The position numbers and the translations under genes were made by a program. From positions 1 to 20,028 of the IMG/VR virus record IMGVR_UViG_3300044858_000998: a stretch of DNA of 20,028 bases; one strand, written 5' to 3'. The DNA is from a virus. Positions 103 through 20,028 of the stretch are shown here, one piece after another; positions within the stretch are counted from its first letter, which is position 1, and each line of letters starts with the position of its first letter. The notes below the pieces were generated by a model. That model saw only the letters and a list, made by a program, of their open reading frames with translations. It did no database searches and had not been told where the DNA came from.

Positions 103-1626
103 TTAGGCTACGACTGGAACCAAAGCCTCTGGAGCTTCGGTAGCGATTGCACCGTACTGGTATACGGAGAAGTCGCGGCTTAGGTTGATGATGTTGTCGT
201 CGGTTAGAGACACAACTGGAGCGGTGTATAGACGCATTGCGTTCGAGTTAACGAATGCTGCGCTTCCGTTTCTCAGTGCGGTGTCGCAAGCAACAGTTAG
301 ACCAGCGAAAGAACCACTAAGAGCTAGTGGGTTTACCTGACCAACAGTGTTTACTCCGCTGTTTCCAGTTACGATTAGCAATGGACGACCGTCAGCGCCT
401 TCAAGCTTCATAAGGGACTTGAATACGTCCTTAGAAACTGCAAGAGCGTCGATTGACCAACCATTGGTCTGGAACTTGTCAGCAGCCTCAACGATTGCAT
501 CTAGCCACTTGTCGTAAGTACCAGAAACTAGAGCAGCATTAAGGTCAATAACCTTTGAGCCACCAGCAGCAACGTGTGCGTCGTACTGGGTGTTGAATGC
601 AGTGCGGACATATCCGTTCAGGTTGTTTGCTACTGCAACTGCCATTGCACGCATGTGTGCATCAAGGAAGTTAACAGATGAGCGCTCAATTGCCTGGCGG
701 CTTAGAGTGGTGTAGCCACCGAAGGTCTTGACAGCGGCAGTGTCAGTGGTGAGTACAACCTGACCGTAAGTTAGGTCGTCACCTTCAGACTCCTGCTCAT
801 CAACTACAACAGAGTTGCTCGATAGCTTTGCGAACTCTAGAGTGTTGCCAGTTGCAGGCAGAACACCAGTAGAGATCAGACCACGAACACCGATTGGGCT
901 GTCAACAATGCGAGTTAGGTCACCAATGAAGGTGTTTAGCATTACAGAGTTGTCAGTGGTGTTTCCGGCGTATGTACGAATGGTGCTCTCGTCTCCAGCT
1001 ACGATGGCCTTTAGGACCTCTCCAGCGGAGCGAGTGTCAGCTGCAGGTGCCGAAGAAGCAACAGCGAAGCCCGACTCAACGAGACGGCGCAACTCAGCTA
1101 CATCCTCCTGAACACTCTGCACGTCGAACTCGACGTTAGTTCTTGATTCCATAGGAATCTCCTTTATTTCAGTAGGGGTTTCGTCCTCGCGGACTTCTTG
1201 GATTGTTGCTCCAGCATATGCTGGAAACGGCACAACGCTGACTTCCCTGAGGGATACAGCTTTGCGAATCACTGTCGATCCGTCGCGCTCACTTTCGAGC
1301 GGAACAAAACCAACAGAGAATTTGTTTAGGACGCCATCCTTTAGCAGGGTGCGTACTTCATTTCCACGAGCAGTGTCACTGATTCGAGCAGTAATAACAA
1401 AGCCCTCCTCAGAGTCACGACCTTCGATTAACTTACCGATTGGCTCCTCGTGTCCATAAAATAGCTTGACATCAGTAATGTCTTCGCTGATTGCTCCGCG
1501 TTCGAAGCGCTCAGTGTAAACACCACCAATGTTGGCGTCCTGGCCATAAGGAACAGCAATACCGCTAACGGTGCGCTCTTCCTCGTCATAACGCAACTCA
1601 ATGTTGCGGGTTTCGATGTTATCCAT
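103..1626 (-). CDS. Fused prohead protease and HK97-fold major capsid protein
   Basis: This 507-residue protein joins two head proteins that most HK97-type phages encode separately. Residues 1 to about 145 are a U35-type prohead protease. The expected triad is visible as H59 (in FYGHEE), S104 (in FSVGF) and E128 (in LREVSVVPFPAY). Residues 159-200 form a short helical, coiled-coil-like delta/scaffold region, and about 205-507 are the HK97-fold capsid subunit. The protease is known in the family to cleave the delta region after assembly. The gene overlaps the portal stop by 8 bases (TAA 1619-1621 against ATG 1624-1626) and follows an AAGGAAGG ribosome binding site. A second strong start lies inside, at M159. 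The family call is firm. The maturation cleavage site is not determined. Confidence 0.93.
   Translation of the reverse strand: MDNIETRNIELRYDEEERTVSGIAVPYGQDANIGGVYTERFERGAISEDITDVKLFYGHEEPIGKLIEGRDSEEGFVITARISDTARGNEVRTLLKDGVLNKFSVGFVPLESERDGSTVIRKAVSLREVSVVPFPAYAGATIQEVREDETPTEIKEIPMESRTNVEFDVQSVQEDVAELRRLVESGFAVASSAPAADTRSAGEVLKAIVAGDESTIRTYAGNTTDNSVMLNTFIGDLTRIVDSPIGVRGLISTGVLPATGNTLEFAKLSSNSVVVDEQESEGDDLTYGQVVLTTDTAAVKTFGGYTTLSRQAIERSSVNFLDAHMRAMAVAVANNLNGYVRTAFNTQYDAHVAAGGSKVIDLNAALVSGTYDKWLDAIVEAADKFQTNGWSIDALAVSKDVFKSLMKLEGADGRPLLIVTGNSGVNTVGQVNPLALSGSFAGLTVACDTALRNGSAAFVNSNAMRLYTAPVVSLTDDNIINLSRDFSVYQYGAIATEAPEALVPVVA
1150..1165 (-). promoter_or_regulatory. Internal ribosome binding site and start codon for capsid-only product
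   Basis: On the minus strand AAAGGAG (1159-1165) is followed by a 6-base spacer and ATG (1150-1152), in frame with the fusion gene at residue M159. The spacing is ideal and the site falls exactly at the border between the protease and the delta/capsid part. Initiation here would give a 349-residue capsid protein (103-1152) without the protease, so capsid could be made in excess over the fusion. The same site is present in the second copy at 19744-19759. That it is used is inference. Confidence 0.65.
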
Positions 1627-2746
1627 CTAGACCTTCCTTAGCTCGGACTTCGTCAGTAGTCAAGAATTGGTTCTGAAGACCGACGGCGTAGTTGGCGTAA
1701 CGCTGTGAGATGTCTGCTTTGAAAAGACCCTCGTAGTCAAACTTAACACGAGTTCCTCTAGGCAAACAATTGCTCATAGCGTCCTCAATGGCGTCCAAAT
1801 AAGCCATGAGAGTGTGGCGATAGAAGATTTGATTCTCATCGCTCAAATTTGTGTAGGTGTCGCTGGTTCCATCAACACCAGTCAGAAGCAAACGTGCAGG
1901 AATACCGAACATGCGTGCGATCTGTTGAACAGCTTGGCTTTGCACATCGGTAAACAGCGCATCCTTTGGAGAGATGGCTACTGCGTCGTAGTTGAATCCA
2001 TTACCCAGAACTGCAATCTTGCGTTCGGACTGTTTATCGTGCCAGCGAGCTGTAATTTCATCAGCTTGCTCGGCGGTGAGCATGGAGTTGCTAGTCAACA
2101 CTCCTGTGGGCACCCCAGCGCTGGCGAACCATGTCGAAGCGTATTCGCGGAGGTCCAACACTCCAGCGATATCTTCTTTGCATAGCTGTATTGGGCCGAA
2201 GCCATGCAGTTCGCCTGGGATCGAGAATAGCTTGAGGTGCTCCATCTCGTTCGCTGGCACGACATCTACAACGTGGTGAGGATAGTAACCGTGGCTGTAG
2301 CTGTAATACTTCAGTCCAGTTTCTTTGTCTACCTCGATACGTACGTTTTTGGTTGGGAGAATCTCTAGTGAATTAACTGCTCCGCTTGTGCTTAGTTTCT
2401 TAAGCCAGAATGCTTCACCAGTTGTAGCAAGGCTAACAACTGTTTGATAAAAGAACTCACGACGTGAATCAAGCAACGATGGGCTGTTGACAATTAGTGG
2501 ATTTGGAATCTGTTGCTCTTGACCAGTAGATGCGATGTAACGAATTGTCTTTACATCCATCTTGGAGATTGGCGTAGCTAGGATTTGTATTGCGCGGAAT
2601 ACTGACGTTAATGAAAGTGCGGTTCTCGGATCAACGATCGGAGTCGCATCGACTCTGCTTGGAGCAGTGCGAATTGATGACGAGACGGTTGCCCGCTCTT
2701 CAACTGGATCGGCAATGCCCAATAGCCTTTGAAAGAAGTTTGCCAT
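1619..2746 (-). CDS. Portal protein (HK97 family)
   Basis: This 375-residue protein forms the ring at one capsid vertex through which DNA enters and leaves and to which terminase and the tail connectors attach. The sequence has the usual course of an HK97-type portal: an N-terminal stretch with LTSVFRAIQILATPISKM (about residues 46-63), a central clip/stem region, and a C-terminal segment with IFYRHTLMAYLDAIEDAMS that precedes the crown. The length is at the short end for the family. It lies between the large terminase and the protease-capsid fusion, the normal position. AGGAG a few bases before the ATG at 2746 sets the start. The stop overlaps the next gene. Confidence 0.92.
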   Translation of the reverse strand: MANFFQRLLGIADPVEERATVSSSIRTAPSRVDATPIVDPRTALSLTSVFRAIQILATPISKMDVKTIRYIASTGQEQQIPNPLIVNSPSLLDSRREFFYQTVVSLATTGEAFWLKKLSTSGAVNSLEILPTKNVRIEVDKETGLKYYSYSHGYYPHHVVDVVPANEMEHLKLFSIPGELHGFGPIQLCKEDIAGVLDLREYASTWFASAGVPTGVLTSNSMLTAEQADEITARWHDKQSERKIAVLGNGFNYDAVAISPKDALFTDVQSQAVQQIARMFGIPARLLLTGVDGTSDTYTNLSDENQIFYRHTLMAYLDAIEDAMSNCLPRGTRVKFDYEGLFKADISQRYANYAVGLQNQFLTTDEVRAKEGLDG

Positions 2747-7969: not shown

Positions 7970-10516
7970 TTACTCCACTGTCTTAAGGAACGTGATTGGT
8001 AGGTGCATGAAGTCAGAGCCGTCAAATGCTTGACCTTCATTTAGAGTTGCAGGCCAAGCTCCGCTGTTTTGGCTGAAATCGTTACCGCCTCTGAATCCAC
8101 CATTTGCGCTAGGGCTTCCAGATGCTGGGTTACCTGGCCAGTATGGTCTCAAGTAGCCTTCGTATTTAACAGCAATATCATTTACACCTTGCTCATAATC
8201 TGGGTGCTGGTAGCTAAAGCCCAAGTAGTACATTCCAGCTGCAACAAAGACTGAGTCAAAGTTAAGCTGAACGATACCGATGTTGGTGCTGGCGGTTAGG
8301 CTGTACTCACCAAGTTCATCCACCAAATTCTTAGGCAAGCCAGTTTCAGGGTCTGCAGTATAGATAGCAAATTTAATTGAACCATTTCCAGTCAATGAAT
8401 CTGGATTATTTAGTTCAGTTAAATGCAACTTAACTGCTTCAAATGTTGCATCAGCACCTAACAAGATTGGGTGCCAGATAATGCTGTGCGCCCAAGCATT
8501 GTTATCTACTACGCTGGTTGGATCATTATCGCCCATCAGACCGCTCGGAATCCATGAATCTGGCCTTGGCCTGCTGAAGTTGATAATGTCTGGAATTCCA
8601 TCGCTTGGAGCTGCTTCGCCCACTGCAAATGAGTGCTTGAACATATTTACAAATATAAAAGGCGTTTGCTCTTCTTCGGGATCACTGCCATCTAAGGAGT
8701 AAGCAATTGGAATCTGGAAATCAGCTGGGATGTTTGTGTCCAAAGGCCTGAGCTGTCCAGGGAAATCAGCACCTGGATACAAAGGCGTATTAGGACCCCA
8801 GTTGGAGTTGTCAGTTATGTTGGCAACAGTTCCGTAAACAACGGCTGTTCCATATTCACCATCATCAATTGAGTTTGGATAGACCAATCCGACAATCTGC
8901 TCTGGGTCTGGCGGCGTGGTGCTTAGGTCAAGTAAAGAAACCTTGACAGCACCATCATCATAATCAGTTGCATAAACTACTGCTCCTGGATAAATTGTTT
9001 CTCCAGAAACATTCTTGATGTCAACAAGAACTACCTTTGCTTCTGTGCTTCCACCAGCAGGTGCCTGGGCTTGCCATTCTCCGCCCTCTTCAAAGGCAGC
9101 CCATGTAAGTACATGTCCACCTTGAATAGAGCCTTGGTCAACCGAAATTCCATTTAGGTCGTAATTAATGTCAAGGCGTCTGCGCTCCCATTTGTCTGTA
9201 TCTGGGTTCCAAACAAGAGCTTGAGCAGTCTGGTCTGGGTCTCCATAAATGTCTGCATCTATTAAATCCGAAAGGGCCAAGCTTGGCTCCCGCAAGTAGT
9301 AAATAGTTATGCGGTCGTTATTATTAAATGAGTGAGTTCCATCAACGTAAGTTACTGGAACTTCTGCATAGGTTGTGTCTGGAATAGGCGCGGCCGATAG
9401 TTCCCAGCGCTGGAAGTTGTTGTGGTCAGCTTCATCAGCAATAACAATAATGTCTCCAGGCTGAGCATTTGCCAAAGCCAAAGCAACGTCAACTCCGTCA
9501 TCAGTAATTTGGCTAACGTAAAGAGATGTTGAATCCGCTTGGGTTGCATTGTTCCACATCAAATAGCCAGTACCGACAGGTGGCGTCTGATCGTTTGTAA
9601 CAGCTCGGTATGTGTAATAGCTTGCGCTTGCACCAGCTGGGCCAGTAGGACCAGTTTCACCTTGCGGTCCCGTAGCTCCTGTGTCACCCTGGGGTCCAGT
9701 TGGACCAGTTTCACCAGTTGCACCTGCAGGACCAGTAGGTCCTGGAACTGTGCTATCAGCACCAGCAGGTCCCGTAGGGCCTGTAGCGCCAGTTGCACCT
9801 GCAGGGCCTGTTGGGCCAGGTACGGTGCTTGCGGCGCCTTCAGGTCCAGTAGGACCAGTTGCACCGATAGCTCCAGCTGGGCCAGTTGGGCCTTCAATTC
9901 CTTGAGCGCCTTGAGGACCAGTTGGTCCTACCGCTCCCGTTGCTCCAGTAGGTCCAGTAGGACCAGGGACAGTTGAATTAGCTCCAGTCGCTCCTGTGGG
10001 TCCAGTTGGGCCCTGAGCGCCAGCTGGTCCAGTCGGTCCAGGCACTGTTGAGGCTGCTCCTTGAGGTCCTGTAGGTCCAGTGGCTCCTGCTGCTCCAGCT
10101 GGGCCTGTTGGGCCTGGAACGGTTGATGCTGCTCCTTGTGGGCCTGTTGGACCTGTAGCCCCTGTAGATCCTGCAGGTCCTGTTGGTCCAGGAACCGTAG
10201 ATGCGGCACCAGTTGCACCAGTTGGTCCTGTAGGTCCGATTGCTCCATTGGCTCCTGCGGGTCCTGTTGCACCTGTGGCACCTACCTGTCCTTGAGGACC
10301 AGTAGGTCCTTGAATTCCTTGTGGCCCAGTAGGACCAGTCGCTCCAGTAGGACCAGTAGGTCCGCCTGGATCACCCTGAGGACCAGTAGGTCCTGTAGGT
10401 CCTTGAGAACCAGTAGCACCAGCTGGTCCAGCAGGTCCTTGAGGTCCTTGTGGTCCAGCTTCTGCTGCGGAAATGATTAGGGAGACTTCAGCTCCAGATA
10501 CAACGATCTCGCTCAT
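7970..10516 (-). CDS. Collagen-like tail fibre
   Basis: An 848-residue structural protein, probably the adsorption fibre. Residues 1-20 form a short N-terminal anchor. Residues 21 to about 296 are almost unbroken Gly-X-Y triplets dominated by GPT, GPQ, GPA and GAT, predicting a collagen triple helix and so a trimer. From about 104 to 277 the triplets form 25-residue modules marked by STVPGPTGP, at residues 106, 131, 156, 181, 230 and 255. Each STV breaks the triplet register and may act as a hinge. Residues about 300-848 are a beta-rich C-terminal region with segments such as [20 protein letters not shown] and a final jelly-roll-like part (about 650-848), the likely receptor-binding end. Collagen-like fibres are common in phages. 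The start overlaps the previous stop as TAATG, without a strong ribosome binding site of its own, implying coupling. Confidence 0.9.
9686..10207 (-). repeat. 75-bp tandem modules inside the collagen-like fibre gene
   Basis: Seven consecutive modules (six of 25 codons, one of 24 that lacks the STV marker) encode residues 104-277 of the fibre. The protein repeats are close, while many third bases differ, so the array is old or has diverged by drift. Such an array can change length by recombination and would alter fibre length by whole modules. Confidence 0.8.
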
Positions 10517-10914
10517 TATCTTGTTACTTCTCCAATTACTGTTATGCTTCCACGAACTAGTGTCCGAATCTCGCCATTGTTGTCATACTGCCAGTCCCAT
10601 ACGCCCTTAAACATTGGCGCAGTAACAAGGTCGTCTTTGACATAAATAGATTCAGTAGTGGCGTCTACTACAAGTTCTGCAGCTACTTCAGATGGCACTT
10701 TCAAAATGGCCTTGCCCTCTACGCCAGTGTCAGTGTTGATCTCAATTTCCCATGATTCATCACTGTTTTCATCTACGCGAATAGATGCCGAGTGGGTGCC
10801 AACAAACTCGTATGGCTCCTCGTCCTCATTTGTAATGTTAAAAACTATGTTGGTGTCATCGCCGCCGTAAGCAACAATGTCAAGAATAGGCGGAACAATG
10901 TTAAGCGTTGCCAT
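10516..10914 (-). CDS. Tail accessory protein, 132 residues
   Basis: A small beta-rich protein typical of a group found beside tail fibres. An N-terminal [20 protein letters not shown] strand region is followed by an acidic middle, and the protein closes with [20 protein letters not shown] and VIGEVTR. The same closing pattern (W-D..., a G-V/I-TL-RG turn, then V-x-V-x-x-DVTR) recurs in fibre or baseplate-associated proteins of many siphophages. A longer frame starting at TTG 10953 exists, but the ATG at 10912-10914 has GGAGG nine bases upstream and is preferred. It overlaps the 63-residue gene by 14 bases and hands over to the fibre gene with TAATG. It is probably an adaptor or chaperone for the fibre; the exact role is not shown. 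Confidence 0.72.
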
Positions 10915-11092
10915 CTGTAGGTTCCTCCGTGATTTCTTCGGCCTGAGGCTCAATGATTAAATCGATTGGCTCATCTTCTATTTTAGCAGGCTCTTCAGCT
11001 ACTGGCTTTGTTGAAGCCTTCTTTGCAGGCTTGTCAGCAGGCTGTGGGCCCTTGTTGGTGTCCCTTGTAAACGGGATTCTGTGTGCATACAT
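10901..11092 (-). CDS. Disordered acidic small protein, 63 residues
   Basis: A 63-residue protein without hydrophobic core: a short basic start (MYAHRIPFTRDTNKG), a Lys-Ala-Pro segment (about 17-37), and a strongly acidic, Glu-rich tail. It is probably unstructured. AAGGAG six bases before the ATG at 11092 supports it, and it overlaps the next gene. I do not recognise a family. By position, between the tail tip and fibre genes, it may be a linker or assembly factor. Confidence 0.65.
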   Translation of the reverse strand: MYAHRIPFTRDTNKGPQPADKPAKKASTKPVAEEPAKIEDEPIDLIIEPQAEEITEEPTDGNA

Positions 11093-18382: not shown

Positions 18383-18684
18383 TAGAGTGCGGGCCTCACA
18401 AATGGCAACAGAAGCGGGTAAACCGCATTCATCGGGTCCTTTGCAATTCGGACAGGGTTGCCGTCCAAGCTTGCAAATTGAGCCACGCCGTTAGGTGCAG
18501 AGCGACGGTGGAACAACTCAGAAGCAGCAGTCAGAATTGCCTGGTCCTTTATGTTGGCAGGCACAGCAGCTGTCTTGATGTAATTGTTCACCAAAAGCGT
18601 TGCTGAAGATAGGCAGCCTTCAATGTAGGAGCCTTCTTCTTTAGTTCCGACGTAGTCCTGTAGTTGTTCTACCGTTACGCTCAT
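18382..18684 (-). CDS. Head-tail adaptor (gp6-like)
   Basis: A 100-residue mainly helical protein of the HK97 gp6/connector type, which forms the ring below the portal. EQLQDYVGTKEEGSYIEGCL and the later AILTAASELFHRRSAPNGVA are typical of the family, as is the C-terminal DPMNAVYPLLLPFV. It begins 12 bases after the capsid gene, behind GGAGC. This is the complete copy; its first 30 codons recur at 1-90 because of the terminal overlap. Confidence 0.85.
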   Translation of the reverse strand: MSVTVEQLQDYVGTKEEGSYIEGCLSSATLLVNNYIKTAAVPANIKDQAILTAASELFHRRSAPNGVAQFASLDGNPVRIAKDPMNAVYPLLLPFVRPAL

Positions 18685-20028
18685 TTTTTGCTCCTATTAG
18701 GCTACGACTGGAACCAAAGCCTCTGGAGCTTCGGTAGCGATTGCACCGTACTGGTATACGGAGAAGTCGCGGCTTAGGTTGATGATGTTGTCGTCGGTTA
18801 GAGACACAACTGGAGCGGTGTATAGACGCATTGCGTTCGAGTTAACGAATGCTGCGCTTCCGTTTCTCAGTGCGGTGTCGCAAGCAACAGTTAGACCAGC
18901 GAAAGAACCACTAAGAGCTAGTGGGTTTACCTGACCAACAGTGTTTACTCCGCTGTTTCCAGTTACGATTAGCAATGGACGACCGTCAGCGCCTTCAAGC
19001 TTCATAAGGGACTTGAATACGTCCTTAGAAACTGCAAGAGCGTCGATTGACCAACCATTGGTCTGGAACTTGTCAGCAGCCTCAACGATTGCATCTAGCC
19101 ACTTGTCGTAAGTACCAGAAACTAGAGCAGCATTAAGGTCAATAACCTTTGAGCCACCAGCAGCAACGTGTGCGTCGTACTGGGTGTTGAATGCAGTGCG
19201 GACATATCCGTTCAGGTTGTTTGCTACTGCAACTGCCATTGCACGCATGTGTGCATCAAGGAAGTTAACAGATGAGCGCTCAATTGCCTGGCGGCTTAGA
19301 GTGGTGTAGCCACCGAAGGTCTTGACAGCGGCAGTGTCAGTGGTGAGTACAACCTGACCGTAAGTTAGGTCGTCACCTTCAGACTCCTGCTCATCAACTA
19401 CAACAGAGTTGCTCGATAGCTTTGCGAACTCTAGAGTGTTGCCAGTTGCAGGCAGAACACCAGTAGAGATCAGACCACGAACACCGATTGGGCTGTCAAC
19501 AATGCGAGTTAGGTCACCAATGAAGGTGTTTAGCATTACAGAGTTGTCAGTGGTGTTTCCGGCGTATGTACGAATGGTGCTCTCGTCTCCAGCTACGATG
19601 GCCTTTAGGACCTCTCCAGCGGAGCGAGTGTCAGCTGCAGGTGCCGAAGAAGCAACAGCGAAGCCCGACTCAACGAGACGGCGCAACTCAGCTACATCCT
19701 CCTGAACACTCTGCACGTCGAACTCGACGTTAGTTCTTGATTCCATAGGAATCTCCTTTATTTCAGTAGGGGTTTCGTCCTCGCGGACTTCTTGGATTGT
19801 TGCTCCAGCATATGCTGGAAACGGCACAACGCTGACTTCCCTGAGGGATACAGCTTTGCGAATCACTGTCGATCCGTCGCGCTCGCTTTCGAGCGGAACA
19901 AAACCAACAGAGAATTTGTTTAGGACGCCATCCTTTAGCAGGGTGCGTACTTCATTTCCACGAGCAGTGTCACTGATTCGAGCAGTGATAACAAAGCCCT
20001 CCTCAGAGTCACGGCCTTCGATTAATTT
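18595..20028. repeat. Terminal overlap, second copy
   Basis: Duplicate of bases 1-1434. The four differences all lie in its last 144 bases and are transitions at third codon positions that leave the protein unchanged: Ser AGT/AGC, Ile ATT/ATC, Gly GGT/GGC and Lys AAG/AAA. This looks like reads from a sister strain at the contig end. Confidence 0.93.
18697..20028 (-). CDS. Protease-capsid fusion, second copy, lacking the first 64 codons
   Basis: Residues 65-507 of the protein at 103-1626, cut off by the window end. The natural start would lie at 20220, beyond the window. A GTG near 19866 only looks like a start and is codon 119. The internal capsid start is at 19744-19746. It is the same gene as the first copy, differing by four silent bases. 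Confidence 0.92.
   Translation of the reverse strand, partial: KLIEGRDSEEGFVITARISDTARGNEVRTLLKDGVLNKFSVGFVPLESERDGSTVIRKAVSLREVSVVPFPAYAGATIQEVREDETPTEIKEIPMESRTNVEFDVQSVQEDVAELRRLVESGFAVASSAPAADTRSAGEVLKAIVAGDESTIRTYAGNTTDNSVMLNTFIGDLTRIVDSPIGVRGLISTGVLPATGNTLEFAKLSSNSVVVDEQESEGDDLTYGQVVLTTDTAAVKTFGGYTTLSRQAIERSSVNFLDAHMRAMAVAVANNLNGYVRTAFNTQYDAHVAAGGSKVIDLNAALVSGTYDKWLDAIVEAADKFQTNGWSIDALAVSKDVFKSLMKLEGADGRPLLIVTGNSGVNTVGQVNPLALSGSFAGLTVACDTALRNGSAAFVNSNAMRLYTAPVVSLTDDNIINLSRDFSVYQYGAIATEAPEALVPVVA

Follow-up and report, generated by a model that had tools for sequence, protein, structure and literature searches.

Conserved internal start codon in protease-capsid fusion genes of small-genome phages suggests a second, capsid-only product

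A single open reading frame (ORF) of a viral contig (IMG/VR record IMGVR_UViG_3300044858_000998; "the window" hereafter means the whole stretch of 20,028 nucleotides analysed) very probably encodes two co-terminal proteins, the shorter one being initiated at an internal ATG (M159) preceded by a Shine-Dalgarno (SD) sequence. Internal initiation yielding a separate capsid precursor of 349 residues is strongly supported by sequence comparison within the family. Ribosomes starting at position 1626 would make the full protease-delta-capsid protein, and those starting at the internal site would make the delta-capsid precursor alone. Since the long and the short proteins would share their delta and capsid parts, co-assembly is to be expected. 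In that case the protease would enter the procapsid as part of the fusion copies and, prior to DNA packaging, cleave the linker and the delta domains there. We infer that both proteins are made, as well as their ratio, their co-assembly and what is cut. Such a scheme would place few protease copies alongside many shell copies and would tether the protease to the shell.

The ORF specifies a protein of 507 amino acids from an ATG start (Table 1). It joins an S78 protease and a capsid in one uninterrupted frame and belongs to the phrog_2263 family. Its protease part scores 68.2 bits with TIGR01543 (cut-off 59), and NF045541, the profile for prohead protease/major capsid fusions, gives 35.7 bits against a curated cut-off of 525. 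This profile yielded seven partial matches in 296 genomes of one bacterial phylum, none of them over the cut-off. In the AlphaFold2 model, the protease is ordered (about residues 20-145) and followed by a linker predicted with low confidence (146-168); a helix spans residues 166-187, and an HK97 fold begins at about residue 235. A Foldseek search with the capsid domain gave phage D3 as best match (7.7e-13) and also HK97 (1.9e-12), and the predicted structure places the capsid part within the HK97 fold; a search by sequence found no relatives in the PDB. H59 and S104 are invariant among 56 relatives and are plausible candidates for catalytic residues.

Table 1. Location in the window of the fusion gene, its presumed internal start and associated features
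Feature	Position	Strand	Remarks
Protease-delta-capsid fusion gene	103..1626	-	Peptidase_S78 3.4e-16 at 9-147; Phage_capsid_4 7e-9 at 269-503; phrog_2263 3.8e-80 at 11-506
SD of full-length product, TAAGGAAGG	1632..1640	-	5 nt from ATG
Portal gene, upstream of fusion gene	1619..2746	-	gene end overlaps fusion start by 8 nt
S78 prohead protease domain, residues 9-147	1186..1602	-	Pfam S78 match ends at residue 147
Disordered hypervariable linker, residues 147-168	1123..1188	-	AlphaFold2 pLDDT under 50; indels among relatives
Internal SD, AAAGGAG	1159..1165	-	
Internal start codon ATG (M159)	1150..1152	-	start codon kept in 166/166 distinct family members
Predicted second product, delta + capsid, 349 aa	103..1152	-	follows from internal start
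6-bp hairpin GATTCC-TAT-GGAATC around internal start	1145..1159	-	window's clade only
Delta (scaffold-like) helix, residues 166-187	1066..1131	-	AlphaFold2
HK97-fold capsid domain, residues 235-507	106..924	-	AlphaFold2; Foldseek
Second copy of most of the fusion gene (contig-end overlap)	18697..20028	-	internal ATG at 19746..19744

The contig ends (1..1434 and 18595..20028) overlap over 1434 bases with four mismatches, which accounts for the double listing of the fusion gene. We are probably dealing with a complete genome of about 18.6 kb, either circular or circularly permuted. Elsewhere in the window, the TTG start listed for the gene at 10516..10953 is doubtful, its true start being probably the ATG located 13 codons further in (10914..10912), which has GGAGG upstream. 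The large protein encoded at 7970..10516 contains an extended collagen-like Gly-X-Y region (Pfam Collagen 8.7e-30) and, judged by position, is probably a tail protein.

The original prediction had placed an in-frame ATG six bases behind AAAGGAG at the protease/delta border, and the DNA (ctgaaatAAAGGAGattcctATGgaatca, i.e. AAAGGAG, six nucleotides, ATG) agrees with it exactly. The border position also holds, M159 being located in the linker, beyond the end of the S78 match and seven residues ahead of the delta-like helix. The signal had been described as stronger than many gene starts. Its anti-SD duplex (-8.7 kcal/mol) indeed ranks fourth among the 20 sites of the window and beats 16 annotated starts, yet it is about equal to that of the fusion gene's own start (-8.9 kcal/mol). 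When the codons of the gene are shuffled, 13% of the versions carry a comparable ATG somewhere, which, scaled to a linker of about 25 codons, corresponds to a chance of roughly 0.6%. In this one sequence the site is suggestive only; its presence across relatives is far beyond chance.

The relatives comprise 166 distinct fusion genes, about 35-100% identical, sampled by pattern scans plus named phages (145 genes, then enlarged to 166). The first peptide-pattern scan touched the junction, a possible source of bias, and all other scans used patterns away from it. For each gene, the start with the best score inside the linker was taken as the junction site; in L058, where a TTG far from its SD scored higher, the ATG was chosen manually. 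In the set of 166, the automatic assignment of L241 is ambiguous. A start codon is found at the junction of all 166 distinct fusions (142 ATG, 23 GTG and one TTG, versus 129, 15 and one in the set of 145). Fused relatives devoid of the internal site, which the original prediction had proposed to look for, thus number none among the 166 family members. The linker around this start is hypervariable, with indels, variations in length and sequence and little conservation, and the start is kept down to about 35-45% protein identity.

Valines at the junction are encoded by GTG in 15 out of 15 cases in the set of 145, with no clear exception in the larger set. Of the remaining valine codons in the 22 unambiguous GTG genes of the set of 166, only 5-46% (mean 18%) are GTG. 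L155 has a TTG behind an SD, and a GTT two codons after that TTG. On a maximum-likelihood tree built with the junction columns left out, the junction codon changed 12 times, always among ATG, GTG and TTG; a quicker, rougher tree of all 166 genes gives 14 changes, all between start codons. Since a methionine requirement would not prefer GTG, the junction appears to be kept as a start codon and not as a methionine residue.

Furthermore, an SD-like site (dG <= -4 kcal/mol) is present in 90.5% of junction windows versus 13.2% of control windows from the same genes, and a strong one (dG <= -7) in 42.9% versus 1.2%, these tests being, like those on codons and folding, only partly corrected for shared ancestry. 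The duplex averages -6.5 at junction ATGs versus -2.1 at other in-frame ATGs, and 11 of 105 contexts have only a weak SD, lacking a core of 4 nt or more. The SD is accommodated by different peptides (KEIPM, TGDPV, RGEQTM, ERSTPM), with its GG in any of the three codon phases. From -25 to +20, the mRNA also shows less folding than elsewhere in the same gene (mean z 1.46 SD, median percentile 0.94), a difference partly explained by the lower G+C of the linker. The expectation that the SD would be held by synonymous constraint was not borne out: synonymous-codon resampling revealed no significant excess (mean percentile 0.48 versus 0.52 at control positions, p=0.13). Hence, what selection acts on seems to be the choice of amino acids in the linker.

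The original prediction also proposed a rare fusion and an abundant capsid. The internal initiation that it postulated agrees with the 166 retained starts, but the proposed imbalance finds no echo in the SDs, which are equal in the window and similar in the family (-7.0 for the gene's own start versus -6.4 for the internal one, n=63), nor in the hairpin that covers the internal ATG. This hairpin, confined to the clade of the window and its nearest relatives, might tune initiation; 6-26% of synonymous versions fold equally well. Given equal SDs at both starts and a hairpin in this clade, relative abundance is not readable from the sequence. The "several hundred" capsid subunits initially assumed may moreover be an overestimate for an 18.6-kb genome.

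Other explanations of the junction deserve to be weighed against internal initiation. All capsid subunits might be made as fusion (1:1), the protease cutting itself off. The equal strength of the two SDs would fit with this, as would the SallySpecial fusion (see below), which seems to do without an internal start, and, by a rough volume estimate, there could be room for one small protease domain per subunit. In HK97, a 1:1 ratio of scaffold to capsid is obtained by fusion (PMC10275583), every subunit carrying a delta domain. However, production as fusion only leaves unexplained why the junction is always a start codon that exchanges methionine for valine through GTG alone, and why an SD lies in range within a region of low RNA structure; we consider it improbable. 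A relic of a recent fusion of two genes by loss of a stop codon, with the old capsid start not yet decayed, would account for a site located just where a capsid gene would begin. Such a relic is hardly credible, because the start has outlasted the divergence of the linker around it and neither 140 phage records nor the IMG/VR loci read contained a split homologue, with protease and capsid encoded separately.

A nested transcript from an internal promoter, as for herpesvirus UL26/UL26.5, would likewise need an internal SD and ATG, which would then serve a shorter mRNA. A consensus scan, which is a weak test, detected no sigma-70-like site on the minus strand between 1100 and 2800, and this origin of a capsid-only protein seems very improbable. 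Slightly more improbable still is the conservation of a K-E-x-x-M type motif at the protein level, for instance as a cleavage site releasing the capsid, the SD likeness resulting from Lys/Arg-Glu codons. KE, RED or QEE are indeed common ahead of the junction methionine, and the SD is set mainly by the choice of residues and not by synonymous choice. However, the peptides are diverse (TGDPV, SGGKM, ERGTLM, QRGSSTM, KGNPPM) with an SD that shifts in codon phase, the valine is GTG with no clear exception, and the site is still present where a ClpP-like enzyme replaces the protease.

This replacement is found in L121 (1095-3080), where a ClpP-like maturation protease (NF045542 7.7e-57; CLP_protease 3.7e-32) takes the place of the S78 domain. 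Its identity to stand-alone proteases from Gordonia and Mycobacterium phages reaches 56%. The ClpP-like part is joined just upstream of AAAGGAactccagATG, and the same internal start is retained. A protease swap that leaves the junction start in place suggests that both fused and free capsid may be needed.

PHROG 2263 also includes the fusions of small phages from Rhodococcus (RRH1), Gordonia and Arthrobacter (AN-type), which are remote in sequence. Thirteen of 15 carry, between protease and capsid, an ATG with some SD-like purines, often weak: RRH1 (M274), GMA5 (M265; AGGAGG, 8 nt), Coeur, McGonagall, Schiebs, Kels, Atraxa, Maggie, BlueFeather, Root, Noely and, in weaker form, Corgi and Piku. 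The internal site of EricDab is poor, and the linker of SallySpecial has no start codon. Some of these fusions also differ by an extra N-terminal part, which is hydrophobic and holin-like in appearance in RRH1 and SallySpecial (L106:4439-6424 and L190). In SallySpecial, an ATG behind AAAGGA lies ahead of the protease (M118) and is possibly a third start-without-stop boundary. We are inclined to think, with some reserve, that in the smallest siphoviruses the genes for protease-scaffold-capsid fusions generally encode two products, the stop having been lost and the capsid start kept. Such genes would thereby provide a small protease dose in a shell subunit together with free capsid, the protease module (S78 or ClpP-like) being exchangeable at that start.

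Two-product genes using an internal start are an old theme. In phage lambda, an in-frame internal start in the protease gene C gives a shorter co-terminal assembly protein, Nu3, and herpesvirus UL26/UL26.5 produces a protease-scaffold fusion and the same scaffold alone through a nested transcript. An internal in-frame start, here conserved and with an SD, is shared with lambda C/Nu3, the short protein being predicted; however, the short product of lambda is a scaffold and its capsid protein is encoded by a separate gene, whereas here the short product would be the capsid itself. UL26/UL26.5 differs both by its nested transcript and by concerning scaffold instead of capsid. HK97 gp4/gp5 share the S78 protease and the HK97-fold capsid with an N-terminal delta domain, but are two separate genes. 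mEp235, considered as a test case, was dropped, its protease and capsid genes being separate.

The protease-scaffold-capsid fusion itself is already known and is described as common in small-genome siphoviruses (PMC5513430, PMC7302621), the former mentioning the scaffold-protease fusion of lambda. The passages of PMC7302621 on protease, fusion and translation initiation contain no internal start, and our searches of the open-access literature turned up no description of a conserved internal start for the capsid in such fusions. The nearest fusions from named phages are homologous over their full length, 40-44% identical, have the same gene neighbours and are annotated as one product; a junction ATG with a purine-rich SD is present in 11 of the 11 examined. 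This identity of 40-44%, which is that with Orlajensenviridae, concerns the fusion protein alone.

Annotations of over 200 sequenced phages (clusters EE, AN, CW and the like) list a single protease-capsid product. Should the internal start be in use, their abundant coat protein would be mis-annotated, and internal initiation would be a simple answer to how a fused protease stays below the dose of the shell protein. The internal start may also offer a conserved and tunable site for the study of protease dose in capsid maturation.
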